Below, one piece after another: positions 10,351 through 31,835 of a stretch of 64,000 nucleotides of DNA. Under the pieces are notes generated by a model. It was not told the DNA's origin. It worked only from the letters and a program-made list of their open reading frames with translations, and searched no databases. Position 1 is the stretch's first letter; each line of letters begins with the position of its first letter. The DNA comes from Brachionus manjavacas (taxonomy: Eukaryota > Rotifera > Eurotatoria > Ploima > Brachionidae). The stretch lies in contig JAHQIY010000021.1 in assembly GCA_019054805.1 (NCBI GenBank), forward strand, positions 1,128,501 to 1,192,500, in the 5' to 3' direction. The position numbers were made by a program, and so were the translations under genes.

Positions 10351-11829
10351 GCTAAAGTATTTAGCAACGTTAACGCCTTAAACCGCAATATACACAATAG
10401 TGTGGTGCAGGGCAGTGCGGTAACTACTGGTGCGTTAGATGTTAAATTAGATGCAGACACACAATCGTTAAACGTAATAGGCAATGCTAAAGTTACAGCA
10501 GAGTTTGTTAAAACGTTAGGTGTTACAGCAATAAATACGGGTTTTTTAACAGGAAACAAAGAAGGTGTGTTAAATAATATTATAAAAGGTGCCGCTATGG
10601 ATATGCTAACGGCCGAAGCCGCTAAAAAAGGAATAAACCCATCGCAAAACCCAAAAGAGTATCAAGAATTATTTGCAAAATATAATCTTTCAAAAGCGGA
10701 TATAATAATGTATAATAATAGTAAGCACACTAATAGTGAAGGTGAAGTGGCAGGATTTGCAACAAAGGATAAAAGCAAAGTGGCAATAAATTTAGGAAGT
10801 AAAGAGAGCGAAACCAGCAAAGGTTTTACAGATTTGTTATGGCACGAGCAAGGGCACATAGCAGACAACGTTAACGATGTTAACGACACAGAAGCTAGAG
10901 AAAACTATGCGGATAAGTTTGCATCAGCGGGTGGTTTTTCTACTACATTTAACGACTTTTTGTTTAGAGACAGCGAACATGCCTTTACCAACCAAACCAT
11001 AAGTACGTATAAGGCAGAAAACAAAGCACAGTTAAACACCAATAACGCCTTTGTTAACACCCTGCAACCCAACAATTTGGATTATAAAACCATATTATTT
11101 AAAGTGCCTACTCAAAACTCTATAATAAAAACCTTTGATTTTTTTAGTGATGTTGCACCTACTGGAGTAAGTATACCTGCTAAAGTTGGCTTGGGTATAT
11201 ATAATGCGAACCCAGAGTTAGCCTATACTTCTTTTGTTGCTGTTGAAAGTAATAGTTTAGAGGAAGCAAGGCAAAAGTTAATAGATGCAGGTATAAATGA
11301 CAGAGAGGCTGTAATTAATAAATATGTTGATAAAGCTACAGGTAAAGATGTATTTGTTACTCCTTCTTACGGATATTTTGCAGATAAAGGCTCTTCTATT
11401 CCATATAAGTTAGGTACTTTGGGGGGTAAATTGAACGTAAGTTTTGGAGTTAAAGATGATGATAAATTTTTATCTACTAAGCAATATAGAAAAAATATTT
11501 TAGAGAGCTACTACGCTGGTGATAAAACTTTACAAAACTACAAAGAAAAATACAATATAATTGATGATCTGGAGGTTTCTTCACAAGAAATTAGCGATAA
11601 TTATAAAAAAGATGTTGAAGTAATTAAGCAATTAAATAGTGTTAATAGTGCAACTATTCCGTATAGTAATTTAACAGTATTACCTAAAGCAAGCTACAAA
11701 GCTACTGTAAATTCTGTTACAGGATCTGCTTGCAGATTTGCGGGAGGTAGCAATTGTAGTAATTTAGGGTTAGGTAGTGAAATAAAAATTAAAGAAATTG
11801 AAGAAGAAGATGATGATAATAGTAAATAA
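10351..11829 (+). CDS. Orphan toxin module 1 (CdiA-like C-terminal fragment)
   Basis: The frame opens right after a TGA at 10348 with no ATG; the first possible start is GTG at 10402 without a clear ribosome site, and no secretion signal or adhesin region precedes it. Residues up to 11091 are the shared pre-toxin. It holds WHEQGHIADN (HExxH) followed by EARENYADKF, a zincin-like arrangement, and ends in LQPNNLDYKT. The unique 245-residue C-terminal domain (11092-11829) carries NSLEEARQKL, related to SDTLEEA in modules 3-5, and near the end the cysteine pair CRFAGGSNC. It probably becomes active only when recombined behind a full-length parent. Two membrane proteins follow as likely immunity proteins. 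Confidence 0.7.
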   Translation, partial: AKVFSNVNALNRNIHNSVVQGSAVTTGALDVKLDADTQSLNVIGNAKVTAEFVKTLGVTAINTGFLTGNKEGVLNNIIKGAAMDMLTAEAAKKGINPSQNPKEYQELFAKYNLSKADIIMYNNSKHTNSEGEVAGFATKDKSKVAINLGSKESETSKGFTDLLWHEQGHIADNVNDVNDTEARENYADKFASAGGFSTTFNDFLFRDSEHAFTNQTISTYKAENKAQLNTNNAFVNTLQPNNLDYKTILFKVPTQNSIIKTFDFFSDVAPTGVSIPAKVGLGIYNANPELAYTSFVAVESNSLEEARQKLIDAGINDREAVINKYVDKATGKDVFVTPSYGYFADKGSSIPYKLGTLGGKLNVSFGVKDDDKFLSTKQYRKNILESYYAGDKTLQNYKEKYNIIDDLEVSSQEISDNYKKDVEVIKQLNSVNSATIPYSNLTVLPKASYKATVNSVTGSACRFAGGSNCSNLGLGSEIKIKEIEEEDDDNSK

Positions 11830-11854
11830 AGCTGATATATAGGTATAAAAAACG

Positions 11855-12094
11855 ATGCGACATATTGTAATTATTGTAATTATTTCTATATTTATTGATT
11901 TTGTTTTATTTACTTCTTTTATTATTGGTAATTTATTAACTTTGTTTTTTAATGCAGTGATTTGTTTTTTATTATATAAGTTGATTTACATAAAAATATT
12001 TCCAGCGCAATCTAAGCAAGTTTTATATACTATGTTTTTTTTAATTCTTACTGCTCAAACTGTAGTTAATATAATGTATAATCTTTCTTTTTAA
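11855..12094 (+). CDS. Small membrane protein, probable immunity partner of module 1
   Basis: A 79-residue, almost entirely hydrophobic protein with about two membrane segments. It starts 25 bases after the module-1 stop with its own AGG ribosome site. Its stop overlaps the next start (TAATG), so the two are translationally coupled. Small proteins of the same design precede the large membrane protein in modules 3, 4 and 5. Immunity is inferred from position only. Confidence 0.6.
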   Translation: MRHIVIIVIISIFIDFVLFTSFIIGNLLTLFFNAVICFLLYKLIYIKIFPAQSKQVLYTMFFLILTAQTVVNIMYNLSF

Positions 12095-12936
12095 TGTGTA
12101 TGAAATATAATATTTATATATATACCTCTTTTTTGTTAACCCTTTTACTATTAATATTAGTAGCTTGGTTTTTCACTTTTTTTGCTAGTAGTTTTAAGTA
12201 TACATCTGGCTTTAATGTTTTTAGTTTTTCTTTTGGTTCACATTGTTTTATGTTTATATCTTTATTATCTCTTATATTAAAATTGCTTTTTATTAAAAAA
12301 TCTACTTATAATAACTTACATTACTTTAAACATTCACTATATTTTTTAATAATAATCGTTGCAACGTTGTTAAGTGTATTATATTTTTTAAATTATAAAC
12401 ACCACATATTATCGTTTATTTATTATTCTATGTTTTATTATGTACATTATGCAGATCACATTTTTTTTCAAAATAACAAATATTTAGTTTTATTAAATGT
12501 TTTATTATCTAGACTTGATTTAATTTTTATAGCGCAGTTAGGGTATGCTCAAGTTTTAGTAAGCTCATTAACTTTTAATGAATTACTAGAGATAATAATA
12601 AGTGCTTCAAAAGATACGTCTATTGTTATAGAAAAACTTGTTAGCGTTAAATCAATAGTCTTGCTTGTATTGTTTACAGGAGCATTCTATTGTATTTTAT
12701 TTTCTATATATTATGTGTTAATAAATAAATTACGTTATAATAAATTTTTGATTTTGTTTTTAAGTCTATTGATTTATTTTGGTATTTTTGATAAACTGCT
12801 TTACAGGGGGTTTGCTATTGCACCTAGTATATTGTTTCTAATTGTTGTTGTTTTTATATTTTTATTTGTTTTTTTCGTTCGCAGATTAACGGTTTTTATA
12901 TATTTCTTAATAAAAAATAAAAAATTAAAACAATAA
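12094..12936 (+). CDS. Polytopic membrane protein, probable immunity protein of module 1
   Basis: 280 residues with about seven hydrophobic segments and the basic tail KNKKLKQ. It overlaps the preceding gene by one base. It belongs to the same large-partner type as 17032-18003, 19881-20861 and 22968-23822, although it is the most divergent and lacks their VKLWLIFKFN motif. A membrane location for the immunity protein suggests the toxin acts at or enters through the cytoplasmic membrane (inference). Its end shares its DNA with the end of the module-3 counterpart. Confidence 0.6.
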   Translation: MCMKYNIYIYTSFLLTLLLLILVAWFFTFFASSFKYTSGFNVFSFSFGSHCFMFISLLSLILKLLFIKKSTYNNLHYFKHSLYFLIIIVATLLSVLYFLNYKHHILSFIYYSMFYYVHYADHIFFQNNKYLVLLNVLLSRLDLIFIAQLGYAQVLVSSLTFNELLEIIISASKDTSIVIEKLVSVKSIVLLVLFTGAFYCILFSIYYVLINKLRYNKFLILFLSLLIYFGIFDKLLYRGFAIAPSILFLIVVVFIFLFVFFVRRLTVFIYFLIKNKKLKQ

Positions 12937-12947
12937 GCACAGTAAAA

Positions 12948-14396
12948 GTGCAGGGCAGTGCGGTAACTACTGGTGCGTTAGATGTTAAATTAGATGCAGA
13001 CACACAATCGTTAAACGTAATAGGCAATGCTAAAGTTACAGCAGAGTTTGTTAAAACGTTAGGTGTTACAGCAATAAATACGGGTTTTTTAACAGGAAAC
13101 AAAGAAGGTGTGTTAAATAATATTATAAAAGGTGCCGCTATGGATATGCTAACGGCCGAAGCCGCTAAAAAAGGAATAAACCCATTGCAAAACCCAAAAG
13201 AGTATCAAGAATTATTTGCAAAATATAATCTTTCAAAAGCGGATATAATAGCGTATAATAATAGTAAGCACACTAACGATAAAGGGGACGTGGCAGGATT
13301 TGCAACAAAGGATAAAAGCAAAGTGGCAATAAATTTAGGAAGTAAAGAGAGCGAAACCAGCAAAGGTTTTACAGATGTGTTTTGGCACGAGCAAGGGCAC
13401 ATAGCAGACAACGTTAACGATGTTAACGACACAGAAGCTAGAGAAAACTATGCGGATAAGTTTGAGGCAGCGGGTGGTTTTTCTACTACATTTAACGACT
13501 TTTTGTTTAGAAGCGACGAAAATGCCTTTACAAACCAAACCATAAGCACGTATAAGGCAGAAAACAAAGCACAGTTAAACAGCAACAACGCCTTTGTTAA
13601 CACCCTGCAACCCAACAATTTGGATTATAAAACTTACGATAACGGCAATGGCTTTGATATTGTAAATGATAAAGTGCAAGAATCTTACGCTTATGTTGGA
13701 GACGATAACAAGGCAAGCTATGTATTAGATACACAAAGAAGTAAAGATTTACAAAGCGGCAAAATAGATGCCACACAAGGCAAAGAGTTAAATAATAATC
13801 CGTATAATCTTAACGAGGTATTAGCTGATAATTTAAGCATACAGCATATTAAAGATGGTGGTATGGACAATGATTATAGAAAATCAGTAAACTTAACTAT
13901 AGATGTTGCCACTGCAATGGTGCCTGTTGGTGGGCAGGTTATGTTAGGGGTTAAGGCGGGTAAAACTTTATTGGGTATGTCTGGTGTGGCTTCTGCCTCT
14001 AAGCAACTATTGCAAGCAGGTAAAATTGCTGTAAATGTTGGAACAATACCTGCTGTGGCGGCTAAGGGTATTGCAGATGTTACAAATAATAACCAGTACA
14101 ATGAGCCTTTAAATAACTTAAATACAGATTTTAGTGTAATAGATAAAGGTTTAGAGTTTGCAATTAATCCATCTGCTAAAACGGCAATTAGTATAGGTTT
14201 AGATTATAGTAAAAATATGGCTATAAATACTTTTAATGTGGTAGAAACTTTAAATAATGCAGTGCATTTACCTATTAGAACAAAAGAAGAAAACCACAAA
14301 AATACTGTAAACACAATAGAGCAAGCAGTACTGTTGCCAGATTTTGCTTCGGGGTATCCTGTTTGTAAGCCAAAAGATACAGTAATATGTAAATAA
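12948..14396 (+). CDS. Orphan toxin module 2
   Basis: The module opens at GTG-CAG directly behind the module-1 immunity gene, with no ribosome site or signal. The shared pre-toxin runs to 13634 with FWHEQGHIADN and the junction motif. The 253-residue unique domain has a hydrophilic first part (SYVLDTQRSKDLQSG). A Gly/Ala/Val-rich middle follows, with MVPVGGQVMLGVKAGKTLLG and two further amphipathic or hydrophobic helices. It ends in VCKPKDTVICK. The middle part recurs in module 8. Membrane insertion is plausible from the glycine-rich helices but not shown. The following 411-residue membrane protein is the likely immunity protein. Confidence 0.7.
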   Translation: MQGSAVTTGALDVKLDADTQSLNVIGNAKVTAEFVKTLGVTAINTGFLTGNKEGVLNNIIKGAAMDMLTAEAAKKGINPLQNPKEYQELFAKYNLSKADIIAYNNSKHTNDKGDVAGFATKDKSKVAINLGSKESETSKGFTDVFWHEQGHIADNVNDVNDTEARENYADKFEAAGGFSTTFNDFLFRSDENAFTNQTISTYKAENKAQLNSNNAFVNTLQPNNLDYKTYDNGNGFDIVNDKVQESYAYVGDDNKASYVLDTQRSKDLQSGKIDATQGKELNNNPYNLNEVLADNLSIQHIKDGGMDNDYRKSVNLTIDVATAMVPVGGQVMLGVKAGKTLLGMSGVASASKQLLQAGKIAVNVGTIPAVAAKGIADVTNNNQYNEPLNNLNTDFSVIDKGLEFAINPSAKTAISIGLDYSKNMAINTFNVVETLNNAVHLPIRTKEENHKNTVNTIEQAVLLPDFASGYPVCKPKDTVICK

Positions 14397-14412
14397 TTAA
14401 ATACAGGGTAAT

Positions 14413-15648
14413 ATGAATAAAGTATTTTTGTTTTTGCACGAAGTATTGCGTATTAATATAATGAAGTTATTTGCTTTAAGATACGAAGATTTACATAACG
14501 ATATAAACAGCGATATAACAAAGAATTCTTCTGGTTCTATAACTTATAGTAGCAAAGGTAAAAAACTTAATAAAAGCAAGCTAAATAAATTGTTTGGTTT
14601 AATAATAGACTGTTTTGTTGTAGTTTTGGCTATTAACCAAGCTATAAAAGGACTGCTTGATTATTTTAATATAAATACAGAAGATACTATTTTTACTATA
14701 AATATAATTTTAGGATTACTATTTGCTATACCTTGGTTTATACTGGGAAGCTATATTATAAAAACCAAGATAGATAATAATAGATTTTTTTATGTGTTGT
14801 TTTTGTTTATTCAGATAATTATATTTGCTCCAATTATTGCACTACATGTTTTAGGATTTCCTGCATTTGTTTTTATATTTATTTTTCTTCTTGTATGGAG
14901 TTTTTTTACTAATAAAAAATTTAATAAGGATAATAATTCTTATCTTGCTTCTTTTTATAATATAAATCTTGTTACAAAAGTTTTTATGGTTTTAATAATT
15001 TATTTTATATTATTTTTACCTTATTACCAGTTACCTATTCATATAGTGTGGCAAGGTATGTTTTTTGTTTTAGGTTTTTTTAATAATATTTCTAGTGTCT
15101 CTTTATTTTTACTATTAGAAATTTTTAAACCTTTGAACCTTGCTGTAATGATTTATTTTAGTATTATATTTAATACTTTTTGGTTATCTGTGTTTTTAAA
15201 CGTAATGATTGGAGCTTTTGTTAGGTATAATAAAAAAATTGATATATTTCTTCAGATAGTAATATTATATTCAATAGCTATACCTATTATTTTTGTAGTT
15301 TATCCGTGGAGCTTTGACTTAATACCTATAGAATCATTTTCGCCTACAGACTTTTATTCTGTTATTAAACCTTTTGCTTTTGTTTTAGTAATTTATATGT
15401 GGGTTCCTAACAAAAGCTTTATAATTAGGCATTTCTCTACAATAAGTTTGTTAAAGTTTTTAAAAATAATTTTGCTGTGGTATGCTGTTAGTTTTTTTGT
15501 TATAATATTATGTTTAGTAGCAGGGTATGCGTTAGATACATTTTTTATAGATACATCTAGCGATTTTTGGCAAAACAATATATTAATAAGTAACTTTAAG
15601 CATAAAATACAAACTTACACACTGCAAGATTGGCTATATAAGTTTTAA
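14413..15648 (+). CDS. Polytopic membrane protein, probable immunity protein of module 2
   Basis: 411 residues with an amphipathic N-terminus (MKLFALRYEDLHND) and about nine hydrophobic segments. It is a clear paralogue of 28445-29779. The segment around LPYYQLPIHIVWQGMF and the last 80 residues (NKSFIIRHFSTISLL onward) are almost identical in DNA, while the intervening parts have diverged, a mosaic pattern. AGGGTA precedes the ATG. The stop codon is in frame with the next toxin module, which begins at once. Confidence 0.62.
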   Translation: MNKVFLFLHEVLRINIMKLFALRYEDLHNDINSDITKNSSGSITYSSKGKKLNKSKLNKLFGLIIDCFVVVLAINQAIKGLLDYFNINTEDTIFTINIILGLLFAIPWFILGSYIIKTKIDNNRFFYVLFLFIQIIIFAPIIALHVLGFPAFVFIFIFLLVWSFFTNKKFNKDNNSYLASFYNINLVTKVFMVLIIYFILFLPYYQLPIHIVWQGMFFVLGFFNNISSVSLFLLLEIFKPLNLAVMIYFSIIFNTFWLSVFLNVMIGAFVRYNKKIDIFLQIVILYSIAIPIIFVVYPWSFDLIPIESFSPTDFYSVIKPFAFVLVIYMWVPNKSFIIRHFSTISLLKFLKIILLWYAVSFFVIILCLVAGYALDTFFIDTSSDFWQNNILISNFKHKIQTYTLQDWLYKF

Positions 15649-16701
15649 AACAATAAGCACACTAACGATAAAGGGGACGTGGCAGGATTTGCAACAAAGG
15701 ATAAAAGCAAAGTGGCAATAAATTTAGGAAGTAAAGAGAGCGAAACCAGCAAAGGTTTTACAGATTTGTTATGGCACGAGCAAGGGCACATAGCAGACAA
15801 CGTTAACGATATTAACGACACACAAGCTAGAGAAAACTACGCCGAAAAATTTGCGGCAGCGGGTGGATTTTCTACTACATTTAACGACTTTTTGTTTAGA
15901 GACAACGAACATGCCTTTACCAACCAAAGCATAAGCACGTATAAGGCAGAAAACAAAGCACAGTTAAACAGCAACAACGCCTTTGTTAGCACCCTGCAAC
16001 CCAACAATTTGGATTATAAAACGCATTTACACTTAGTTCAACAGAAAGAGTCGAAAGCTTTTGATAAAACTTTATTAGAAAGTTTGTATAGCTTTACTAC
16101 TGAAGCCACAGGAGAAGTAGGGAGTGTAGTTGATGTTATTAATGAAGCTGTAGGTTCTTTATCTGACGACGGTAAGGATTTGAAATATGTTGTTATTAGT
16201 GATTTACTGTCTAAAAAAGATTATAACGAATACAGTTATAGCATAGATAGTGATACTTTAGAAGAAGCTAAAAGTAAGGCATTAGAAGCTGGTTTAACAA
16301 ATTATTCTATAGATAAAGAGGGTAGTAAATTTGTTATTAAGGCTGTTGTATATGATGCAGGGGCTTTTAATACAAAAATTACAAATACTAAGCTTGATAG
16401 TCATTTACAAATAAATTTTAATACACAATTAAAAACATCGTTTAAAGATGTAATAGCTAACTTAGGTTATGGTAATAAAAATAGAGATAATGAGATAAAG
16501 AATTATTATAAAAACCCTATTAATAATAAAAATACAATAACTCTTTCTACATCTTATAACGACGACGTAGAGAATTTAAAAAGATTGCAAAATCATAATT
16601 TAGCAGAGCATAGATATAAAACATATAATAGTGAATCTTTAGCTGTAGATATGTGTAGAGACAATAAGGTTGACTGCACGCCTTTAATAGAAAGTAAATA
16701 A
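15649..16701 (+). CDS. Orphan toxin module 3
   Basis: The frame continues directly from the immunity gene stop at 15646-15648, entering the shared pre-toxin at SKHTND, so only its last third is present. It keeps LWHEQGHIADN, the Glu/Asp-rich EARENYAEKF variant (QARENYAEKF) and the junction motif. The unique 225-residue domain (from 16024) has a hydrophobic stretch GEVGSVVDVINEAVG, the module SIDSDTLEEAKSKALEAG, and the terminal pair CRDNKVDC. There is no start codon with a ribosome site. Two membrane proteins follow. Confidence 0.68.
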   Translation, partial: NNKHTNDKGDVAGFATKDKSKVAINLGSKESETSKGFTDLLWHEQGHIADNVNDINDTQARENYAEKFAAAGGFSTTFNDFLFRDNEHAFTNQSISTYKAENKAQLNSNNAFVSTLQPNNLDYKTHLHLVQQKESKAFDKTLLESLYSFTTEATGEVGSVVDVINEAVGSLSDDGKDLKYVVISDLLSKKDYNEYSYSIDSDTLEEAKSKALEAGLTNYSIDKEGSKFVIKAVVYDAGAFNTKITNTKLDSHLQINFNTQLKTSFKDVIANLGYGNKNRDNEIKNYYKNPINNKNTITLSTSYNDDVENLKRLQNHNLAEHRYKTYNSESLAVDMCRDNKVDCTPLIESK

Positions 16702-16743
16702 TAGATATTAATTATGCGACAAATATTAAATTATAGGTACAAA

Positions 16744-17013
16744 ATGAATATATTTAAAAAAATAATAGTTTTAGCTATATTGTTTTTTATTATAGATTTT
16801 ATTTATGAAAAAACTTTAAACTATGGCGTACAAAATTTTTATATGCCTTATATATTAAACATTACTATAATCGCTTTGTTTTTATTAGCTATATATAGGT
16901 TTATCTTTTTAAAGTTTTTTTATATGTATAAAAATTATGCAAAATATAGTTTAATATTTATGTTTGTTTTATATTTGCAGTTTCAAAACCATATAACCAC
17001 AATATTTTTTTAA
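16744..17013 (+). CDS. Small membrane protein, probable immunity partner of module 3
   Basis: From the preferred ATG (after TAGGTAC) the product has 89 residues; an upstream ATG at 16714 would add ten. It starts MNIFKKIIVLAILFFIIDF and has two to three membrane segments and the motif RFIFLKFFYMYKNYAKYSL, which recurs as LRIFFYEYKTKIKYSL and KFFYEYKSTIKYAL in the counterparts of modules 4 and 5. This defines a family of small partners. Confidence 0.62.
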   Translation: MNIFKKIIVLAILFFIIDFIYEKTLNYGVQNFYMPYILNITIIALFLLAIYRFIFLKFFYMYKNYAKYSLIFMFVLYLQFQNHITTIFF

Positions 17014-17031
17014 TAAATAATTAGCCGAGCA

Positions 17032-18003
17032 ATGTTATCTTTAGATAAATTTAAATTTATTAGTTTTGTTTTTAGCTTATTAGTAACTCTTGTTTTAGTA
17101 TTATTAATACATTATTTATCGGACTTTATAATAGCCAAAATATGGGAGTATATATATTATATTTTACATAATAAAAAAATTAATTATGTAAACGACTACT
17201 ATCTTTTATTTAACATTAACAGTATAGCTTTAAAATATATAGAAAAATACTTTACAATACTTACTAATGTTTTTATATTGGCTTGTATTATTACAGTAAA
17301 GTTATGGTTAATTTTTAAATTTAACAATAAGTATTGGGATTTAAGCAAAAATTATATATATGCTTATTGCGTTGTGTTTTGTTTAATTATATTTGCATCT
17401 ATGTTTTCTTTTAGCGGAAGACTATACCAAGAATTTGATGACCTAGCTTTATATATACTTACTTATAAAGATAACTTAACCCCTTTGCTTTATTTGTTTA
17501 ATCTAAGCCTAGATAATTTAAACAATAGTACTGTTTTTACTATTGTTTATTGTTTTAAAATATTTACACCTATTGCTAGCACAATTGTATACTTTATTTT
17601 AAATAAGTTTGCTACTATATTTGGTATATCTATTAACATACAAATTGCAAAAAGTTTGCTAATGTTAGTGGCTTTTACAGTAAAACTAATTTTTACATCA
17701 TTAATATGGCTGTTGCTTTATTTTATGGTAAAGCCTTACTTTAAGCTACACAATATCTCTAAAATTGCTAAGTTTATTGCTATCTTTGTGTTTTGTATTA
17801 TTGTATTAAAGCAATATCCACTTACAGATTTTCCTTATATAAATAATTATTTAAGCGAACTACTATATTTAGCTATATATTATTACCCATTTACCACGTT
17901 TATAATATTAAGCTTTATAATATTAAATACAATATATATATTATTATATTTATATAGGTTTATAATTGGTGTTATAATAAAAAATAAAAAATTAAAACAA
18001 TAA
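17032..18003 (+). CDS. Polytopic membrane protein, probable immunity protein of module 3
   Basis: 323 residues, about seven membrane segments. TVKLWLIFKFNNKYW near residue 85 and PFTTFIILSFIILNTIYI near the end are shared with the large partners of modules 4 and 5. Its 3' end (KNKKLKQ and the following 30 bases) is nearly the same as that of module 1's large protein. It lies 18 bases after the small partner and directly before module 4. Confidence 0.62.
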   Translation: MLSLDKFKFISFVFSLLVTLVLVLLIHYLSDFIIAKIWEYIYYILHNKKINYVNDYYLLFNINSIALKYIEKYFTILTNVFILACIITVKLWLIFKFNNKYWDLSKNYIYAYCVVFCLIIFASMFSFSGRLYQEFDDLALYILTYKDNLTPLLYLFNLSLDNLNNSTVFTIVYCFKIFTPIASTIVYFILNKFATIFGISINIQIAKSLLMLVAFTVKLIFTSLIWLLLYFMVKPYFKLHNISKIAKFIAIFVFCIIVLKQYPLTDFPYINNYLSELLYLAIYYYPFTTFIILSFIILNTIYILLYLYRFIIGVIIKNKKLKQ

Positions 18004-18014
18004 GCACAGCAAAG

Positions 18015-19511: not shown

Positions 19512-19519
19512 GGCTTAAA

Positions 19520-19879: not shown

Positions 19880-19880
19880 G

Positions 19881-21713: not shown

Positions 21714-21818
21714 AAGTTAGTATAGTAAAGTTTATAAAAATTAGTTATACTTAATATAGCAATTATAGTTATAATTAAAATTAAAATACATAATAAGTAA
21801 AAAAAAACAAATAAACAA

Positions 21819-22664: not shown

Positions 22665-22675
22665 GAGAATTAAAA

Positions 22676-22948: not shown

Positions 22949-22967
22949 AATTAGGTTGTTACATATT

Positions 22968-23822
22968 ATGTTAAATATACCATTACGTTATGTTAAGTAT
23001 TTTTTACTGTTTTTATCTTTTTTATTACTTTTCTTTTTATCTATTTATATAAAATACTTAATTAATATTTTATTTATAAAAATCTATTCTAATAATAGTT
23101 TAATGGGTATTATAGATAATGTTTATTATGAAACTCCTATATTTACATTCTATATATTCTTTAATTCTATGATTATAATTTCATTAAAACTATGGTTACT
23201 ATTTAAATTTAATAATAAGCAGTGGCTTAAATATAGATATTTTATTTATGTTTTTTTAATAATAATGTTTTTAATTTGGCTAATAAGTTATTTTAAAATA
23301 AATGATAATGTATACAAAGATTTTAATTTAGAAATAACAGAACTACTCTTTGGTTTTCGTCAAGTAGAAGCAGTACTACAGTATTTCTTTCCAGTATTCT
23401 ATGATTACTTTAATACATACATAGTTGGTAATAATTTAGGAGATAAGCTTGTAGCGTATTATTATCTCTTATTTTCTCTTTTTACTAATATAAGATTTAA
23501 AGTTATTTTACTAGCTTTACTGTTTGTTGCTTTTTATGTAACCAAAAAATTATACTATAAAGATACTAATATTAAGCATAAACTAGCGGTTACATTTGCA
23601 GTTACTACATTTATTTGTGTTACATCTTTTTTTATATCAAATAGCAATAGTTTTATAATACAGTTTATACTAAAACATATTATTGTAGAGTGGCTTCAGA
23701 TGATACCCTTTACCACGTTTATAATATTAAGCTTTGTAATATTAAATATAATATATATAGTATTGTATTTGTATAGGTTTATAATTGGTGTTACAAAAAG
23801 GATAAAAGCAAAGTGGCAATAA
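22968..23822 (+). CDS. Polytopic membrane protein, probable immunity protein of module 5
   Basis: About 284 residues from the ATG at 22968; the frame is open further upstream but without a good start. It has about seven membrane segments, with SLKLWLLFKFNNKQW and PFTTFIILSFVILNIIYI as in the module-3 protein. Its last residues (RIKAKWQ) and its TAA are read from the first bases of the next module's pre-toxin in another frame, so the two genes overlap at a recombination joint. Confidence 0.6.
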   Translation: MLNIPLRYVKYFLLFLSFLLLFFLSIYIKYLINILFIKIYSNNSLMGIIDNVYYETPIFTFYIFFNSMIIISLKLWLLFKFNNKQWLKYRYFIYVFLIIMFLIWLISYFKINDNVYKDFNLEITELLFGFRQVEAVLQYFFPVFYDYFNTYIVGNNLGDKLVAYYYLLFSLFTNIRFKVILLALLFVAFYVTKKLYYKDTNIKHKLAVTFAVTTFICVTSFFISNSNSFIIQFILKHIIVEWLQMIPFTTFIILSFVILNIIYIVLYLYRFIIGVTKRIKAKWQ

Positions 23823-24922
23823 ATTTAGGAAGTAAAGAGAGCGAAACCAGCAAAGGTTTTACAGATTTGTTATGGCACGAGCAAGGGCACATAGCAGACA
23901 ACGTTAACGATATTAACGACACACAAGCTAGAGAAAACTATGCGGATAAGTTTGCGGCAGCGGGTGGATTTTCTACTACAGTAAACGACTTTTTGTTTAG
24001 AGACAACGAACATGCCTTTACCAACCAAACCATAAGCACGTATAAGGCAGAAAACAAAGCACAGTTAAACAGCAACAACGCCTTTGTTAGCACCCTGCAA
24101 CCCAATAATTTGGATTATAAAACGCATTTAATTGCGGTTAATAAAAAATATGATTCTTATATAAAAAAACCAACAGAGGTATTAACAAGTGACGCTATGC
24201 AGTATGCAGCTATAGCTACTGAAATCATACCCCCATTAAAAATTGTTTCTACTCCAATTAAAATAGTAGCTGGCGTTGGTGAGGCGGTAGGTAATTTAGA
24301 TACCGTTAGTAGGTTGTTAAATGGTAAATCTGTGCCGGAGATTGTTAAAGACTCTGGTGTAATTAACTGGCCTGGTTCAATAGATTCTTATATTTATGTA
24401 GAAAACGATACTAAAAAAGAAGCTTTAGACGTATTATCTGCTTATGGTTTAGATGAAAATAATTCTTATATTCAAGAGAATAAATATAACAACAAAACCA
24501 CATATTCTTTTGCTATAACAGGAGTAATTGAGCCGTTAAACAATACAAGTCCTAATGTGCCAATTTTAAAGTATAACGCTAGCGAGAAAAATATGGAGGA
24601 TTTAAGTAAATATTTAAATAATGACTCTTTAATTTATAAGGAAACTGTAGCTATAGAGCACAACGAAGATAAAAATCTTGCAAATATTATAAATAAAGGT
24701 TTTAACGGAGAAGATGGTAAAACTGTAGTTTTTGCACCTATAAATAAAGATAATTTTTTGGACTATAATAAGTTTGATAAAACGGACTTGGGGGGAATAT
24801 TAAATGATAAGGGCGGATTAAACACAAATTCTGTAGCAGCTTATGCTTGCGTTCAATCTAAATCTTGCTCTAATAATTATTTTGGTAGCCCTGAATTACC
24901 TACAGGTAAAATAAGAGATTAG
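23801..24922 (+). CDS. Orphan toxin module 6
   Basis: It enters the pre-toxin at KDKSKVAIN, overlapping the preceding immunity gene, and keeps LWHEQGHIADN and the junction motif; it has no start signal. The 265-residue unique domain (from 24125) has a hydrophobic region IATEIIPPLKIVSTPIKIVA, then VENDTKKEALDVLSAYG, a diverged form of the SDTLEEA module, and the close cysteine pair CVQSKSC near the end. It is followed 39 bases later by a single 379-residue membrane protein. Confidence 0.67.
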   Translation, partial: DKSKVAINLGSKESETSKGFTDLLWHEQGHIADNVNDINDTQARENYADKFAAAGGFSTTVNDFLFRDNEHAFTNQTISTYKAENKAQLNSNNAFVSTLQPNNLDYKTHLIAVNKKYDSYIKKPTEVLTSDAMQYAAIATEIIPPLKIVSTPIKIVAGVGEAVGNLDTVSRLLNGKSVPEIVKDSGVINWPGSIDSYIYVENDTKKEALDVLSAYGLDENNSYIQENKYNNKTTYSFAITGVIEPLNNTSPNVPILKYNASEKNMEDLSKYLNNDSLIYKETVAIEHNEDKNLANIINKGFNGEDGKTVVFAPINKDNFLDYNKFDKTDLGGILNDKGGLNTNSVAAYACVQSKSCSNNYFGSPELPTGKIRD

Positions 24923-24961: not shown

Positions 24962-26101
24962 ATGAACAGTCTTTCTTTAAAAAATTTTGTATTACTAGTA
25001 TTATTGTGCTTTATTATTTTTTCTAAAGAGCTAGGTATATTGCTTGTAAGTCATTATCAGTTATTTGCATATTTGGGGCTATGGGTATTTATATCTATAC
25101 TTTCTTGGTTAATTTATAAATATATATTTTCTATTTACTTTGTTTTATATAACAATCAAGCCAAACATTTATTAGCAGTAAACACTTTTAGCATTTTTTT
25201 TAAAAGTGTAAATTATATTAGCTATATTTCTTTGTTTGATTTTGCTACTATATTAATTTTTTTATTAATAATTAAAAACCGCCAACATTATAAATTTTAT
25301 TTAGCAATTATTGGTGTTGTAATATTAACATCTATTATTAGCATAATATTTATTATTGTTAATGTTCCTTATATCATTAATGTAAGCCTAGCAAGATTTA
25401 TGTTGTTTATATCTTATTATAAATTATTAAATAAAATACTTTTTGTTGTTGGAGAAGGTTTTAAAATATGTATTGTGTATTGCTTTTATGCTATAGTAAT
25501 TTTTGCACCAATTTATATAATATGGCTATCTACTAAATTTAGTAGTTTATTTAGTTTGAGCAAAAGACAAGAGAGTATTTTATTTTTTATAATTGTGGGT
25601 GTTTTTATATGTAAAGCGATAGGGGATCCAGTGTTCTTTTTTTACTCTAAGTTGGCAAGAAATAACTTTGTTCTTGATAATGTTGTTTTGTACGTAGTAG
25701 GCATTTATTTATTTGTATTGTTTATGGGTTTTTGTATTAATTTGTTTTTACGAGGTTTTTTTGTTTTAAATGTTTTTTCTTGGTTACAAAAAAATACAAA
25801 CATTAAAACTTATAAAAAATATAAATTATTATTGTTGTCATTATTATCTATAATTGTTGTTGTATATGTATTTTATAATTTTTTTCCTCACAAACCTCTT
25901 CTGAATTATGATGTAGTAGCTTCTTTTGTTTCTGATAGTTATTTATTAGCAGTGATGGTAATGTATTTTCAATCTTTAGTGTTTGCGGATTTATGTATAA
26001 GCATAGCTATTGTAATGTTTGTAGTAATTATGCTAATTTGGTTTTCTTTATTGTCTGTAATAAAATATTTGCAACAAAGGATAAAAGCAAAGTGGCAATA
26101 A
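24962..26101 (+). CDS. Polytopic membrane protein, probable immunity protein of module 6
   Basis: 379 residues with about nine membrane segments, not clearly related to the other immunity types. AAAGAGAA precedes the ATG. As with module 5, its last residues (QQRIKAKWQ) and its stop are supplied by the next module's pre-toxin in another frame, which means the original 3' end has been replaced or trimmed by recombination. Confidence 0.58.
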   Translation: MNSLSLKNFVLLVLLCFIIFSKELGILLVSHYQLFAYLGLWVFISILSWLIYKYIFSIYFVLYNNQAKHLLAVNTFSIFFKSVNYISYISLFDFATILIFLLIIKNRQHYKFYLAIIGVVILTSIISIIFIIVNVPYIINVSLARFMLFISYYKLLNKILFVVGEGFKICIVYCFYAIVIFAPIYIIWLSTKFSSLFSLSKRQESILFFIIVGVFICKAIGDPVFFFYSKLARNNFVLDNVVLYVVGIYLFVLFMGFCINLFLRGFFVLNVFSWLQKNTNIKTYKKYKLLLLSLLSIIVVVYVFYNFFPHKPLLNYDVVASFVSDSYLLAVMVMYFQSLVFADLCISIAIVMFVVIMLIWFSLLSVIKYLQQRIKAKWQ

Positions 26102-27069
26102 ATTTAGGAAGTAAAGAGAGCGAAACCAGCAAAGGTTTTACAGATTTGTTATGGCACGAGCAAGGGCACATAGCAGACAACGTTAACGATATTAACGATA
26201 CACAAGCTAGAGAAAACTATGCGGATAAGTTTGCGGCAGCGGGTGGTTTTTCTACTACATTTAACGACTTTTTGTTTAGAGACAACGAACATGCCTTTAC
26301 CAACCAAAGCATAAGCACGTATAAGGCAGAAAACAAAGCACAGTTAAACAGCAACAACGCCTTTGTTAACACCCTGCAACCCAACAATTTGGATTATAAA
26401 ACTTATTTAAAAGATGGTAAGGTTATAATAAAAAATGATGATTTAAACATTAATTCTGTTTTTGATGCTAAAAAGCAAGGGTTAACTATTCAATTTTTTG
26501 AAAATAAAGTGCTATCTGATAGTTTAAAAACTACAAACAAAGATATGGCAAATGCTGTTGAAATAAAACCTATAGAAGGGGTAAGTATTAATGATAGCGA
26601 TGAAGCTAGATTGTATGATATAAAAAATAGAGTGTTTAGCACTTTGTCGGGCAAAGAAGAGACTGTATTGCTGCCTAAAGCTTTAGTAGATACAGTAAAT
26701 TCGTTAGATGATATAAACACAACTTTAAAGCCTTTATTAACAAAAAACATTAACTTGCCTAGTTTAGCATTTAGCTATATAAACGAAGGAATACAAGTTT
26801 TTTCAACAAATAATAATTTAAAAGCTGGCTTAACAAAAATAGATAATACTATGTCCGCACTTAACCCTTTAGGGGCGTTAATACTATCATCGCAAAGTAT
26901 AGTTAATGATTTACATAACAAGCAACAGCATTCTACTATTAGTGCTACTAGTGCACTGTTACAAGAGTGGAGCTCAACGTATACTCCTGCACCTTGGAAA
27001 AATAATAAAGAAACAAACAGTATGACTAATTTTTATAAAGAATTAGCAGCTAAACATAGTAAAGAATAA
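26068..27069 (+). CDS. Orphan toxin module 7
   Basis: It enters the pre-toxin at FATKDKSK inside the end of the preceding immunity gene and retains LWHEQGHIADN and the junction motif. The 221-residue unique domain (from 26404) differs from the rest: it has no cysteine pair, no SDTLEEA module, and ends in a hydrophilic NFYKELAAKHSKE. Hydrophobic stretches occur near MSALNPLGALILSSQ. There is no start signal. It is followed by a 256-residue membrane protein. Confidence 0.65.
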   Translation, partial: FATKDKSKVAINLGSKESETSKGFTDLLWHEQGHIADNVNDINDTQARENYADKFAAAGGFSTTFNDFLFRDNEHAFTNQSISTYKAENKAQLNSNNAFVNTLQPNNLDYKTYLKDGKVIIKNDDLNINSVFDAKKQGLTIQFFENKVLSDSLKTTNKDMANAVEIKPIEGVSINDSDEARLYDIKNRVFSTLSGKEETVLLPKALVDTVNSLDDINTTLKPLLTKNINLPSLAFSYINEGIQVFSTNNNLKAGLTKIDNTMSALNPLGALILSSQSIVNDLHNKQQHSTISATSALLQEWSSTYTPAPWKNNKETNSMTNFYKELAAKHSKE

Positions 27070-27122
27070 TAAAGTTGATTTGTTATAATTGCATTACAAT
27101 TAAAGTAGGTTGCTTAAGAAGT

Positions 27123-27893
27123 ATGTTACAAAAATTTATATTACTAATATTAAAACGCTATAACATTAATAATTATACATTTAGTGCGTTTTTAAATATA
27201 ATTATGTATGCAGGTATTAATTTTTTGTATGTTGTTTTTATACACTCTAGCTATATTAACTATATTTTTATTATTAACAATAAATTATTTGCATTTACAA
27301 TATCTATAATCTACAGTTGCTTTTTTGTTTTTAATACAATTATTTTGTTTAAATTTACTTTTATAAATTTATTTACTAGGTGCTATAATGTTGAGAGCAA
27401 GTATTCTTTTAAAAGTGATAGAATTTCTGTTTTTAATAATATTCTGTTGCGAATATATTGTATAAAACCAACACTAGATTTAAGTTTTTTAAAAGAAAAA
27501 AATACTGGAATAACAAGTTGGTTGTGGAAAAACGGTGTTTTATATTTTTTTTATATAAACTTAGTGGTTAATTATACAAAAGCAAAAGGATATATGTATG
27601 GCAATTTTTTTATTAGATCTCAAGCTGTTGGGCTTGGTATAGCTTGTTTGTATTTATATAATCTAAGCTTAATAGCTTTGTTAACAGGTTATAATATACA
27701 AGAATATATTATGATTATTGTTTTTATAAACTTTATGTTTATATGTTTTGTTATTTTGTTTTTATTAATTTTTTATAAACTTAATGTATTTATTGTAAAA
27801 GTAAAAACAACAATTGTATTAGTATTTGTGCAGTTAATTATCTCTGCATTATTATATATTGCTTTATTATTAATAAAAGTATATTATATTTAA
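27123..27893 (+). CDS. Polytopic membrane protein, probable immunity protein of module 7
   Basis: About 256 residues from the ATG at 27123 (MLQKFILLILKRYNINN); a TTG at 27075 would add 16 residues but is less likely. It has about six membrane segments. It is unlike the other immunity proteins, in keeping with the distinct module-7 toxin domain. It ends where the truncated module 8 begins. Confidence 0.55.
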   Translation: MLQKFILLILKRYNINNYTFSAFLNIIMYAGINFLYVVFIHSSYINYIFIINNKLFAFTISIIYSCFFVFNTIILFKFTFINLFTRCYNVESKYSFKSDRISVFNNILLRIYCIKPTLDLSFLKEKNTGITSWLWKNGVLYFFYINLVVNYTKAKGYMYGNFFIRSQAVGLGIACLYLYNLSLIALLTGYNIQEYIMIIVFINFMFICFVILFLLIFYKLNVFIVKVKTTIVLVFVQLIISALLYIALLLIKVYYI

Positions 27894-27898
27894 TAATT

Positions 27899-28429
27899 GC
27901 CACTGCAATGGTGCCTGTTGGTGGGCAGGTTATGTTAGGGGTTAAGGCGGGTAAAACTTTATTGGGTATGTCTGGTGTGGCTTCTGCATCTAAGCAACTA
28001 TTGCAAGCAGGTAAAATTGCTGTAAATGTTGGAACAATACCTGCTGTGGCGGCTAAGGGTATTGCAGATGTTACAAATAATAACCAGTACAATGAGCCTT
28101 TAAATAACTTAAATACAGATTTTAGTGTAATAGATAAAGGTTTAGAGTTTGCAATTAATCCATCTGCTAAAACGGCAATTAGTATAGGTTTAGATTATAG
28201 TAAAAATATGGCTATAAATGCTTTTAATGTGTTAGAAACTTTAAATAATGCAGTGCATTTACCTATTAGAACAAAAGAAGAAAACCACAAAAATACTGTA
28301 AACACAATAGAGCAGAATTCTATGGGTAGCAATACATACGACTGGTATGTTAATAATTTATACGAAAAATCTAAAAAACAAGATACAAAAACGATTTGCA
28401 AACCAAGAGATAAAGCAATTTGTAATTAA
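27899..28429 (+). pseudogene. Truncated toxin module 8, partial copy of module 2
   Basis: No pre-toxin or junction motif is present. The sequence begins inside the unique domain of module 2 and is almost identical to it from about 27897 to 28313 (matching about 13907-14322), including MVPVGGQVMLGVKAGKTLLG. It then changes to a different end, NSMGSNTYDWYVNN and the terminal pair ICKPRDKAICN. The unit therefore is a toxin tail plus immunity gene that has lost its front half. Confidence 0.65.
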
Positions 28430-28444
28430 TAAACAGGTAAGAAT

Positions 28445-29779
28445 ATGAAAAGAGTATTGTTTTTTATAAAAGAAATATTATATTTTAATGCAATGAAGCT
28501 ATTTGCTTTAAAAATAGAGAGTGCAACTGCAACTAAAGAATATTCTGTAGAAATTATAAATGTTAATGCTAGTACTACACAAGCCGAATATACAAATACA
28601 CAAAGTACAACTAATACTTACAATAGTAGCAAATTAAATAAAATATTTGGCTTATCTATAGATATATCTATAGTACTATTAATTTTAAGCCAAGTTTTAC
28701 TTTTTATTGTAAATTATTTTATAGCAAATACTAAAACTATAGATTTTACTATAAGGTTTGTTTTTATTTTAGCGTTTACACTACCTTTAGCTATGGCAAC
28801 TATTATTTTTTTGATTAAGAACACTCAAATTGGTATAAAAACACTTACTAGTGTAGTTTTTATGATTAATCTTATTTTTATTTTTTTGTATGCAATTAAC
28901 ATTCCTGTTGTTGGTGTTATACTTTTTTATTACGTAGTTATAATTATTTACGTTGTATTTGTAAAAATATTTTCAAATTCTGATACAAATTTAACCAAAA
29001 CAGATGGTATCGTATCGGATACAAACAGAATAAATCAAATATTATCTGGTAAAATTATTCCTTTTTATAATATAGATGTATTACTTAAGTGGGCGGTATT
29101 TTTTGTAGCTTATTTTATATTCTTTTTACCTTATTATCAGTTGCCTATTCATATAGTGTGGCAAGGTATGTTTTTTGTTTTAGGTTTTTTTAATAATATT
29201 TCTAGTGTATCTTTGTTGTTACTATTAGAAAGTTTTAAGTATTTAAACGTTTTCATAATTTTATATTTTACTTTGTTTTTTATGGTTTTTCTTATTTACG
29301 GCTTGTTAAACGGTGCTTGGGCTTTTTGGCTTAATTTATACAAAGAAAAAGTAAAAATTGGGTTGTCTATTTTTGTAACATATGTAGTAATGGCTTTAAT
29401 TGTATTGTTTATTTATTTGTTGCTAGAGCCGTTTAGCTTAAATTTATCATCTGCACGTTTAAACATGTGGGATATGAGAAATATAATAAAGTTAATACTC
29501 CCTGTTGCTTTATTATCTGTAGCTTGCTTCTTTATTCCTAACAAAAGCTTTATAATTAGGCATTTCTCTACAATAAGTTTGTTAAAGTTTTTAAAAATAA
29601 TTTTGCTGTGGTATGCTGTTAGTTTTTTTGTTATAATATTATGTTTAGTAGCAGGGTATGCGTTAGATACATTTTTTATAGATACATCTAGTGATTTTTG
29701 GCAAAACAATGTATTAATAAGTACTTTTAAGCATAAAATACAAACCTATACATTACAAGATTGGTTACATAAGTTTTAA
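28445..29779 (+). CDS. Polytopic membrane protein, probable immunity protein of module 8
   Basis: 444 residues, about nine membrane segments, AGGTAAG before the ATG. It is a paralogue of the module-2 immunity protein: the N-terminus MKLFALKIES, the central LPYYQLPIHIVWQGMF and the last 80 residues match, while a Ser/Thr-rich stretch near residues 35-60 and several loops differ. The different loops fit specificity for the different module-8 toxin end. Confidence 0.62.
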   Translation: MKRVLFFIKEILYFNAMKLFALKIESATATKEYSVEIINVNASTTQAEYTNTQSTTNTYNSSKLNKIFGLSIDISIVLLILSQVLLFIVNYFIANTKTIDFTIRFVFILAFTLPLAMATIIFLIKNTQIGIKTLTSVVFMINLIFIFLYAINIPVVGVILFYYVVIIIYVVFVKIFSNSDTNLTKTDGIVSDTNRINQILSGKIIPFYNIDVLLKWAVFFVAYFIFFLPYYQLPIHIVWQGMFFVLGFFNNISSVSLLLLLESFKYLNVFIILYFTLFFMVFLIYGLLNGAWAFWLNLYKEKVKIGLSIFVTYVVMALIVLFIYLLLEPFSLNLSSARLNMWDMRNIIKLILPVALLSVACFFIPNKSFIIRHFSTISLLKFLKIILLWYAVSFFVIILCLVAGYALDTFFIDTSSDFWQNNVLISTFKHKIQTYTLQDWLHKF

Positions 29780-29790
29780 AAAATAATCAA

Positions 29791-30813
29791 AGTAACGATA
29801 AAGGGGATGTGGCAGGATTTGCAACAAAGGATAAAAGCAAAGTGGCAATAAATTTAGGAAGTAAAGAGAGCGAAACCAGCAAAGGTTTTACAGATTTGTT
29901 ATGGCACGAGCAAGGGCACATAGCAGACAACGTTAACGATATTAACGACACACAAGCTAGAGAAAACTACGCCGAAAAATTTGCGGCAGCGGGTGGATTT
30001 TCTACTACATTTAACGACTTTTTGTTTAGAGACAACGAACATGCCTTTACCAACCAAAGCATAAGCACGTATAAGGCAGAAAACAAAGCACAGTTAAACA
30101 GCAACAACGCCTTTGTTAGCACCCTGCAACCCAACAATTTGGATTATAAAACCTTAGCAGGCAAAGTACAGTATAATGGTGAAAGTTACAATGCCTTTAT
30201 TACAGATAATGCTAAAGAAAAAAGCGTTAGTGTGGTAAAAGATATGGGAAGATTTGTGCACGGAATTGTAAAAGACGAAGACTTAACTAATGCTTACAAA
30301 AAAGGTGAAGTTGATATTAGCGATGCAAATTTATTAGATTATGCTATAGATAATACAGAAGAAGGGGAGATACTGCAAGATGATAAGTTTAAAGAAATTT
30401 ATTCTTCAAAAAAAGAGTTAAAAGTAGGGGAAATGTTAGATGTCTCTGTAAGTGTAATGGGGCATGTTGCAGGTATGTCCGAAGGTATAGCTAGAATGAA
30501 GCAAGGTAACGTAAAGTATGGGTATGCTTTATATTACAGTAATTTTTACGGAGCATTAAGCGATATTAATATTTTACCAGATAATGAGTATATTGAAGCT
30601 ATAAATAATCAGACTGCATTAATAAATAAAGCATCTGTTTCTGGTGCAATAACTTCTGTTGTTCAAAATGTATTGGTAAACCATATTAAAAATACAGTAG
30701 ATGATCCCAAATTTTTAATTAACTACGTTGTCGCCACAATTAATAATTATAACAAACCAACACAGTGCATAAAGGGTGTTAGTGGTTATTTAAGTTGTAA
30801 TAAAAGTAATTAA
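29791..30813 (+). CDS. Orphan toxin module 9
   Basis: It enters the pre-toxin at SNDKGDVAG, twelve bases after the preceding immunity gene, and retains LWHEQGHIADN and the junction motif. The 219-residue unique domain (from 30154) is rich in Asp and Glu in its first half, has GHVAGMSEGIARMKQG near its middle, and ends with a cysteine pair spaced by nine residues (CIKGVSGYLSC). No start signal. A 193-residue membrane protein follows. Confidence 0.66.
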   Translation, partial: SNDKGDVAGFATKDKSKVAINLGSKESETSKGFTDLLWHEQGHIADNVNDINDTQARENYAEKFAAAGGFSTTFNDFLFRDNEHAFTNQSISTYKAENKAQLNSNNAFVSTLQPNNLDYKTLAGKVQYNGESYNAFITDNAKEKSVSVVKDMGRFVHGIVKDEDLTNAYKKGEVDISDANLLDYAIDNTEEGEILQDDKFKEIYSSKKELKVGEMLDVSVSVMGHVAGMSEGIARMKQGNVKYGYALYYSNFYGALSDINILPDNEYIEAINNQTALINKASVSGAITSVVQNVLVNHIKNTVDDPKFLINYVVATINNYNKPTQCIKGVSGYLSCNKSN

Positions 30814-30825
30814 AGGGGTATAACT

Positions 30826-31407
30826 GTGTTAAATAAAAATAATATTGGCTTTGTTGCGTTACTGGTAGAGTTTTTGTTGTTAGCGGGTTTTATAACTATA
30901 TATAATGAAAATATATTAAGTTTAGCTATTTATGTGGTTTTAACTATATATATTTATAAGTTTGATGTAAATGTAGATATAAGTAATGCTAAAAATACAA
31001 TACAAAGAGTAATAATAATGTTATTGATATTAAACCAGATAACAACGGTGGTTTGGAATAAGCTGTTTTTAGCCTTATTTGTATTATCTTTTAACGTTTG
31101 GAGTTGCGAAGAGAATTCAATTTATAAAATAAATAAAAATATTTATAAATATTTTTATTTATTTGTATCAATAAGTGCGTGCGTTATAGGTTATGGTGTA
31201 ATTTTTGCTGGTATATACTTAAATAAATATATGTTGTTAATATTTTTACTATACATTCTTGTTTATATCTTATTTTTTGGTAAAATAGCACATTTAAACA
31301 TTTATAAAAATATAACAGACAACAAACACAAAGGCTTAAAGATTTTTATATGGAATAGCTGGGTTTTAGCTTATATTTTTATTTATTTGCTAACGCTAAA
31401 AATATAG
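30826..31407 (+). CDS. Membrane protein, probable immunity protein of module 9
   Basis: 193 residues from GTG after AAAGGGG, with about six membrane segments. Its last codons and TAG are read from the next (remnant) module's DNA in another frame, the third case of this kind in the array. The sequence is not clearly related to the other immunity proteins. Confidence 0.57.
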   Translation: MLNKNNIGFVALLVEFLLLAGFITIYNENILSLAIYVVLTIYIYKFDVNVDISNAKNTIQRVIIMLLILNQITTVVWNKLFLALFVLSFNVWSCEENSIYKINKNIYKYFYLFVSISACVIGYGVIFAGIYLNKYMLLIFLLYILVYILFFGKIAHLNIYKNITDNKHKGLKIFIWNSWVLAYIFIYLLTLKI

Positions 31408-31835
31408 GAGAAGAAATAGAGATTTCTGGTAAAAGAACTAATGTTGATGCACTAAGCACTAAAACAACTGAAGAAAGCAATAACAAAGAGCAAGAAGAAG
31501 TTAATGAAATAGCATTTAATAAAACAAAAGATAAGCAAGAAGAAGTAAACGTTAACGCCTTAAACCGCAATATACACAATAGCGTGGTGCAGGGCAGTGC
31601 GGTAACTACTGGTGGGTTAGATGTTAATTTAGATGCAGACACACAATCGTTAAACGTAATAGGCAATGCTAAAGTTACAGCAGAGTTTTTTAAAACGTTA
31701 GGTGTTACAGCAATAAATACGGGTTTTTTAACAGGCAACAAAGAAGGTGTGTTAAATAATATTATAAAAGGTGCCGCTATAGATATGCTAACCGCCGAAG
31801 CGGCTAAGAAAGGAATAAACCCATTGCAGAAATAA
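31389..31835 (+). pseudogene. Terminal remnant of the toxin parent sequence
   Basis: This fragment carries sequence further upstream than any other copy (EIEISGKRTNVDALSTK, then a Glu/Lys-rich stretch and VNALNRNIHNSVVQGSAV). It stops at NPLQK before the HExxH region, where an unrelated sequence begins. It has no toxin domain or immunity gene. The short beta-repeat-like ISGKRTNVDAL resembles FhaB/CdiA-type repeat regions and gives a glimpse of the missing parent. Confidence 0.62.

Follow-up and report, generated by a model that had tools for sequence, protein, structure and literature searches.

Array of toxin and immunity modules

The stretch of DNA analysed here, hereafter the window, is 64,000 nucleotides long (C21:1128501-1192500, C21 being contig JAHQIY010000021.1) and belongs to the assembly deposited for the rotifer Brachionus manjavacas (114 Mb, 61 contigs); its subject is an array at window positions 10351-31832 that resembles the orphan toxin and immunity modules of polymorphic bacterial toxins. 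Nine modules with a C-terminal domain (M1 to M9) and a toxin-less remnant (M10) all lie on the + strand, just as an original prediction made from the sequence alone had it, and they follow a tandem same-strand plan of conserved pre-toxin, variable C-terminal domain and putative immunity gene. The membrane-protein genes that follow each C-terminal domain number one to three and encode 2-12 transmembrane (TM)-like segments by a simple hydropathy count, which gave none in the ten C-terminal domains tested. The units are as follows (window coordinates; aa, amino acids).

10351..11826, + strand: M1, long pre-toxin copy and family F1 domain; left end without start codon
11855..12936, + strand: I1a (79 aa) and I1b (280 aa), membrane immunity proteins
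12921..14393, + strand: M2, pre-toxin and family F2 domain; left flank common to M4
14413..15648, + strand: I2, immunity protein of 411 aa with ~10 TM-like segments
15649..16698, + strand: M3, shortened pre-toxin (from ~NNKHTN) and F1 domain; left flank common to M9
16714..18003, + strand: I3a (99 aa) and I3b (323 aa), immunity proteins
17988..19508, + strand: M4, pre-toxin and F1 domain
19520..20861, + strand: I4a (119 aa) and I4b (326 aa), immunity proteins
20919..21713, + strand: I4c, extra membrane protein of 264 aa, ~36% identical to a gene at C21:438757-439665(-)
21801..22661, + strand: M5, ~35 pre-toxin codons and F1 domain
22676..23822, + strand: I5a (90 aa) and I5b (start uncertain), immunity proteins; end of I5b is pre-toxin DNA in another frame
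23777..24919, + strand: M6, shortened pre-toxin and domain weakly related to F1
24962..26101, + strand: I6, immunity protein of 379 aa with ~12 TM-like segments; final codons fall in pre-toxin DNA, read in another frame
25939..27066, + strand: M7, shortened pre-toxin and domain without relatives in the array; open frame overlaps I6
27075..27893, + strand: I7, immunity membrane protein (start uncertain)
27785..28426, + strand: M8, partial F2 domain without pre-toxin; M2 homology from 27897
28445..29779, + strand: I8, immunity protein of 444 aa, mosaic with I2 (patches of 94.6% and 95.9%)
29773..30810, + strand: M9, shortened pre-toxin and domain without relatives in the array
30826..31407, + strand: I9, immunity protein of 193 aa
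31359..31832, + strand: M10, remnant that holds the pre-toxin region's most upstream stretch, as far as GINPLQK, and lacks a C-terminal domain

Pre-toxin repeat and recombination between its copies

Pairwise, the pre-toxin copies are 93.6-99.3% identical in DNA (self-BLAST of the cut modules), far beyond chance, and their homology ends at, or within ~10 nt of, the motif LQPNNLDYKT, save in M10, which breaks off earlier. Their left ends vary, lying relative to M1 at 10404-10405, 10722-10739 and 10755-10764: the pre-toxin is long in M1, M2 and M4 (from VQGSAV or further upstream) and shortened in M3 and M9, which begin at about NNKHTN, and in M6 and M7, which begin at about KDKSKV. The earlier claim that the modules repeat one near-identical pre-toxin is correct for most of them, but M5 keeps ~35 codons and M8, which opens partway through a copied M2 domain (27897 corresponding to 13906), has none.

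The motifs WHExxH..D and RENxA are invariant in seven of seven rows of an alignment (A5) that includes, at 25% identity, a homologue from a related genome, G004 (see below), and we infer the residue that would serve as third zinc ligand. Weak matches were obtained to the metallopeptidase family DUF4344 of Pfam (E-value 0.012, in one of the nine members of alignment A3), to PHROG 2439 (E 0.004, in one of nine proteins) and to an HtpX chain (E 0.45). PHROG 2439 is annotated as a transcriptional regulator, and such regulators carry ImmA/IrrE-type zincins. The pre-toxin is thus quite probably a zincin-like releasing peptidase, judged by its motifs and these matches; two pre-toxin-related structure models are of low confidence (predicted local distance difference test, pLDDT, 35 and 41). 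No Pfam match to the pre-toxins PT-VENN or DUF637 appeared at E up to 1 in the ten module frames or up to 5 in the nine members of A3.

Two pairs of modules bear the marks of exchange. In M2 and M4 the pre-toxin and the end of the immunity gene ahead of it are common to both (99.3% identity over 727 nt), and the next 150 nt are 37% identical; in M3 and M9 the pre-toxin is 98.9% identical over 371 nt and the preceding 245 nt of I2 and I8 are 95.9% identical, with 35% over the next 150 nt. A common flank and pre-toxin joined to different toxins is what crossing-over or conversion among copies of the pre-toxin should yield, and both pairs are fossils of re-pairing across it. M6 and M7 were considered as a third such pair and rejected, as their pre-toxins are 97.5% identical and their domains differ (39%) with nothing common to the left of the pre-toxin. 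Since the last codons and stop of I5b and I6 lie in pre-toxin DNA read in another frame, the junctions look like end-joining with no fixed site.

Toxin and immunity families

When the nine domains and the C-terminal domain of G004 are compared by BLASTP, those of M1, M3, M4 and M5 fall into one family, F1 (for example M3/M5, 38%, E 2e-16), and those of M2 and M8 into another, F2 (82%), leaving the M7 and M9 domains to stand alone. M6, at E 2e-4, lies at the edge of F1, as does the G004 domain with a match of 21 residues at E 0.004. Run against 12 proteins, a profile built from the F1 domains of the four members recovers M6 (E 0.0007) and G004 (E 0.015), with a composition bias that exceeds the scores, and the NSxxxxxC...C stretch common to the end of F1 is present in the G004 domain too. 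F1 would thus comprise four toxins, or perhaps six with M6 and the G004 domain. Wholly unrelated C-terminal domains, as proposed from the sequence alone, are rejected by F1 and F2, and the proposal holds for M7 and M9.

Behind each F1 module stands a membrane-protein pair, one small and one large, with I3a, I4a and I5a related to one another and likewise I3b, I4b and I5b, while I1a and I1b match such pairs by position and size only; the F2 modules M2 and M8 are paired with the related I2 and I8. Toxin and immunity families co-vary, as paired toxins and immunity proteins do. M2 and M8 diverge in the last 23 and 37 residues of the domain, and their immunity proteins in the initial part, with much of the rest near-identical, a hint that the domain tail is the specific part.

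No above-cut-off Pfam match was found in the ten module frames or the 14 immunity-type frames, nor any such NCBIfam match for the nine proteins scanned; PHROGs, NCBIfam and PADLOC gave weak matches only, most of them taken as chance. In a protein collection, no relatives were found among 7999 candidates scored for the M2 query or 7996 scored for the A3 profile, and the tail of the G004 exoprotein had one match among 4341 candidates, its own copy P0001. Searches for relatives returned none among 33 pattern matches of the pre-toxin in a genome contig collection, none in plasmids and none among 57 pattern matches in viral contigs. As far as these searches go, they agree with the expectation that the families are undescribed, and the toxin, immunity and pre-toxin families are apparently new.

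Host genome, missing parent and a relative that has one

The assembly combines a eukaryotic host genome, whose 18S gene lies on contig C10 (Rfam RF01960), with bacterial contigs. C21 measures 1,221,242 bp, and because its first 10 kb are a second, 98.4% identical copy of window positions 51761-61666, the contig represents one full turn of a ~1.18-Mb circle, with the array in its unique part. C21 is the genome of a reduced alphaproteobacterium, in keeping with the reduced genome that had been predicted: its CTP synthase is 64% identical to that of the alphaproteobacterial metagenome-assembled genome L027 (G001), the nearest among the 80 loci kept, and 55-56% identical to the other 79 of the 80, all of which bear Pelagibacter, Pelagibacteraceae or Pelagibacterales names (SAR11-type). 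Of 348 candidates for a 16S gene, 5 were scored, none of them from C21. At C45:135960-137516 there is a full bacterial 16S gene. We take it to be gammaproteobacterial and Vibrio-like, and contig C45 is probably a second bacterium in the assembly. The words haemagglutinin, two-partner and contact-dependent do not occur in the main text of PMC11724238.

A pre-toxin query against the assembly gave nine matches among ten candidates, all within the window. The M10 query added a 29-residue piece at C21:437584-437670(-), directly behind a second copy of the outer-membrane-protein-like gene found ahead of M1, and the 50 kb around C21:437584 hold no frame longer than 612 residues. One match was obtained among four genomes of the order of G001, in G004 (pre-toxin 27% identity, E 3e-11), which we call a relative because of the link to G001 and because the two enolases, its own and that of the window, are 78% identical. 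The match lies in a 2509-aa open frame (G004 C5:92405-99931) that carries the Pfam domain TPS (8e-33) and haemagglutinin repeats (Fil_haemagg_2, 1e-30) and ends in the homologous pre-toxin and a C-terminal domain. A small membrane protein follows this exoprotein and an enolase-like gene adjoins; no transporter gene stands beside it, the ShlB-type transporter of G004 being on another contig, C2. From the homology of their pre-toxin to this exoprotein, the modules derive from a two-partner-secretion system of the contact-dependent inhibition (CDI)/TpsA type, which bears out their interpretation as orphan modules of such a polymorphic toxin. A full-length parent thus exists in a relative and was not found in this genome.

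Nor is it the parent alone that is missing. The profiles PF05860 (TPS; one of five genomes), PF03865 (ShlB/TpsB; one of two) and PF13332 (Fil_haemagg_2; one of two) matched only in G004, with no match in the window's assembly; 14 standard control genomes were without match, so that G004 is the sole positive control. As far as these profiles reach, the whole delivery system is absent, and the array does not lie downstream of tpsB/tpsA (cdiBA) in this assembly. A search of the window's own assembly with the full 2509-aa G004 query found nothing among eight candidates and is given no weight, because it missed even the pre-toxin. The proposed comparison with Neisseria maf loci fails: the G004 exoprotein gives TPS and Fil_haemagg_2 and no MafB-type N-terminal domain, and maf membership is rejected by a test on that protein only, the modules themselves being without any N-terminal part.

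Selection and expression signals

Eight frames (M1-M7 and M9; 3203 codons, with M7 counted from 26020 and M8 and M10 left out) contain no stop when read from stop to stop, a reading that excludes an early end only where relatives mark the end. In 200 runs of a neutral-drift simulation, no new stop arose in 2.5% of runs at a nominal divergence of 1% and in 0 at 2%; at a nominal 5% per site ~20 stops would be expected. The ratio of non-synonymous to synonymous substitution (dN/dS) was sought in 31 non-independent pairs with 30 codons or more; 29 yielded a value, which is below 1 in 27, the exceptions being M2/M7 and M4/M7. M5/M9 have 0 synonymous and 2 non-synonymous differences.

Start sites were scored by their mean pairing energy with an anti-Shine-Dalgarno (SD) sequence of E. 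coli type, possibly not that of the bacterium itself. The 13 control genes average -3.2, the 17 immunity start candidates (which include alternative starts of one gene and 27132, no start codon) -2.3 and 1000 background starts -1.4. Module left ends show no convincing start; in M1, M2, M3, M4 and M9 an internal GTG stands behind an SD-like sequence (-6.2 to -6.9), a site lacking in M5, M6, M7 and M8. The contrast drawn earlier, of ribosome sites in immunity genes and none in modules, is weaker than claimed. Inspection of the module frames, without a predictor, showed neither a signal peptide nor an adhesin region, as had been stated. These features make expression of the immunity genes plausible and silence of the modules likely.

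Interpretation and alternatives

In our interpretation, which we give a probability of roughly 0.66, the toxin/immunity modules are orphans of a CDI-like TpsA toxin, stranded in this genome, and the array is now, if anything, an immunity bank. Homology to G004 shows that the pre-toxin stands before the C-terminal toxin of an intact exoprotein; the common flanks show that modules multiplied and exchanged partners through homologous recombination between pre-toxin copies; and exoprotein, outer-membrane transporter and haemagglutinin stalk are missing from this genome, as assembled and at the sensitivity used. Toxins would thereby go undelivered, while the membrane immunity proteins could still be made and might guard against kin or neighbours firing such toxins, which the zincin-type pre-toxin would cut free and which may act at or across the inner membrane. 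Retention for immunity is tentatively the leading benefit of the array, and M8 counts in its favour, its pre-toxin and the first part of its domain being lost and I8 being a 444-aa frame; slow decay in place of such a benefit is somewhat less probable.

Several observations weigh against this interpretation. Eight open toxin frames are superfluous in a pure immunity bank, and a shortened end would go unseen in M7 and M9, which have no relatives. M2 and M4 differ by 0 synonymous and 3 non-synonymous changes, the dN/dS pairs are not independent, and the variable pre-toxin sites fall at codon positions one to three in the numbers 9, 7 and 14 (p 0.27), a skew that is not significant, so that the selection signal is weak. 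The ribosome sites of the immunity genes are modest, and promoter-like sites are no more frequent than by chance (62 versus 68.6 in shuffles, 9000-20500). I1a and I1b have no BLASTP match to the other immunity pairs, and the zincin assignment draws on a motif and weak matches, with both structure models of low confidence.

The nearest rival, which we consider unlikely, is a dead relic in which the system was lost recently and the array has not yet decayed. Truncation at several left ends, M8 without pre-toxin, M10 without toxin, the fragment at 437 kb and the modest ribosome sites all fit such a relic, but the lack of stops in 3203 codons of eight frames, the 14 immunity-type frames and the keeping of 21 kb in a 1.18-Mb genome do not.

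Decidedly less probable is a live donor array, in which the intact exoprotein and transporter would be encoded in other cells of its population, or on a replicon missing from the assembly, and would receive new toxins from the array by recombination. Recombination has clearly occurred, some duplications are very recent (M2/M4, 99.3%) and the toxin frames are open; against this, neither exoprotein nor transporter was found in the 61 contigs, C21 closes on itself, and, because the two lie on separate contigs in G004, one assembly collapse would not remove both. The view of the array as silent donor cassettes for toxin switching, put forward in the original prediction, lacks its parent, for no protein with the pre-toxin and no TPS, ShlB or Fil_haemagg_2 match was found; with the launcher not found, a switching reservoir cannot work in this genome as assembled.

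That each module is an independently expressed protein inside the cell, for instance from the internal GTG of M3 or M9, is highly improbable and is rejected as the main explanation: SD-like sequences precede that GTG in five modules, yet the other four, M5 to M8, lack the site, there is no common start, and the frames begin in or just behind the preceding gene at differing points of the pre-toxin. Least probable is an assembly artefact of mis-joined repeats and a collapsed parent, which the up to 99% identical pre-toxins and the duplicated contig start might invite, but the repeats are separated by distinct domains and immunity genes, the frames are open, and the transporter gene, not part of the repeats, was not found either.

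Comparison with known systems

The following comparisons draw on the available parts of the papers cited. Like the array, the orphan cdiA-CT/cdiI modules consist of tandem fragments with a conserved junction, a variable C-terminal domain and an immunity gene; their toxin fragments generally lack translation starts, their immunity genes appear expressible, and they reach up to eleven pairs (Poole et al., 2011; PMC3150448). They lie downstream of cdiBAI, whereas here no parent or transporter was found and the junction has no VENN (PT-VENN) match. The eleven orphan pairs of E. coli EC869 in the same source (PMC3150448) rule out a record length for the present array, whose length had been thought unusual; what is unusual is the missing parent. 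In the TPS islands of Neisseria meningitidis, truncated TpsA cassettes (tpsC) likewise alternate with immunity open reading frames (IORFs), recombination has been shown, and the collecting of immunity genes is proposed as the main goal of the cassettes (Arenas et al., 2013; PMC3848433). There, tpsB/tpsA heads the array and many tpsC are broken; the present array lacks such a head, and in all but one of its nine modules an open frame still links a domain to some pre-toxin. Remnants of displaced C-terminal/immunity sets also accumulate stepwise downstream in Acinetobacter type-II CDI, where the parent is present (PMC6336857). The rAID systems, marked by a recombinase gene and by immunity genes without toxins, are likewise arrays of orphan immunity genes that guard against effectors of the type VI secretion system, whereas here the toxin parts are kept and the toxin is of the type V secretion system (T5SS). 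In polymorphic toxins at large, too, the pre-toxin lies between delivery part and toxin, with an HExxH releasing peptidase in toxins secreted by Photorhabdus virulence cassettes (PVC); the T5SS table has DUF637 and PT-VENN pre-toxins and a HINT protease, and a zincin-like T5SS pre-toxin was not found in the part of that paper available (Zhang et al., 2012; PMC3482391). The architecture is a known one in an unusual genomic situation.

Neighbouring features

Lipoprotein-like and outer-membrane-protein-like genes flank the array on the left (8980-10313, + strand), and the block is copied at C21:437584-439989(-), with lipoprotein, membrane protein, outer-membrane-like protein and pre-toxin start. 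The outer-membrane-like gene recurs a third time at C21:111662-111904, as a broken piece with two TAA. Right behind the array, at 32148-32465, a 73-nt intergenic repeat occurs four times; measured against the reference copy, the other three have 64-89% identity. Repeats like those of CRISPR (clustered regularly interspaced short palindromic repeats) run from 34233 on with a spacing of 66 nt (region 34233-43557). The - strand genes there are presumably Cas2-like (38605-38952), Cas1-like (38974-39903) and Cas9-like, the last in the overlapping frames 39924-42365 and 42262-43557, a split that reflects either a frameshift or an assembly error. The two frames 57274-57792 and 57828-58445 make up one split gene, a pseudogene or a sequencing error, which to us looks like lpxB.

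Significance

A bolder reading, which we hold to be doubtful, is that the reduced, host-associated bacterium disarmed itself through loss of exoprotein and transporter and that the array is now a multi-specific membrane-immunity shield, with undescribed toxin families and a zincin-type pre-toxin that would extend the range of recombination junctions in type V polymorphic toxins. The array is in any case a natural set of recombination products, with a pre-toxin that matches nothing above cut-off in the libraries searched and at least two families of toxins and membrane immunity proteins. Why arrays of orphan toxin and immunity genes persist, as a reservoir of weapons or as a bank of immunity, is left unsettled in the available parts of Poole et al. 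(2011; PMC3150448) and Arenas et al. (2013; PMC3848433). An array of nine modules in a genome where no delivery system was found separates the two ideas, for here only immunity could pay.

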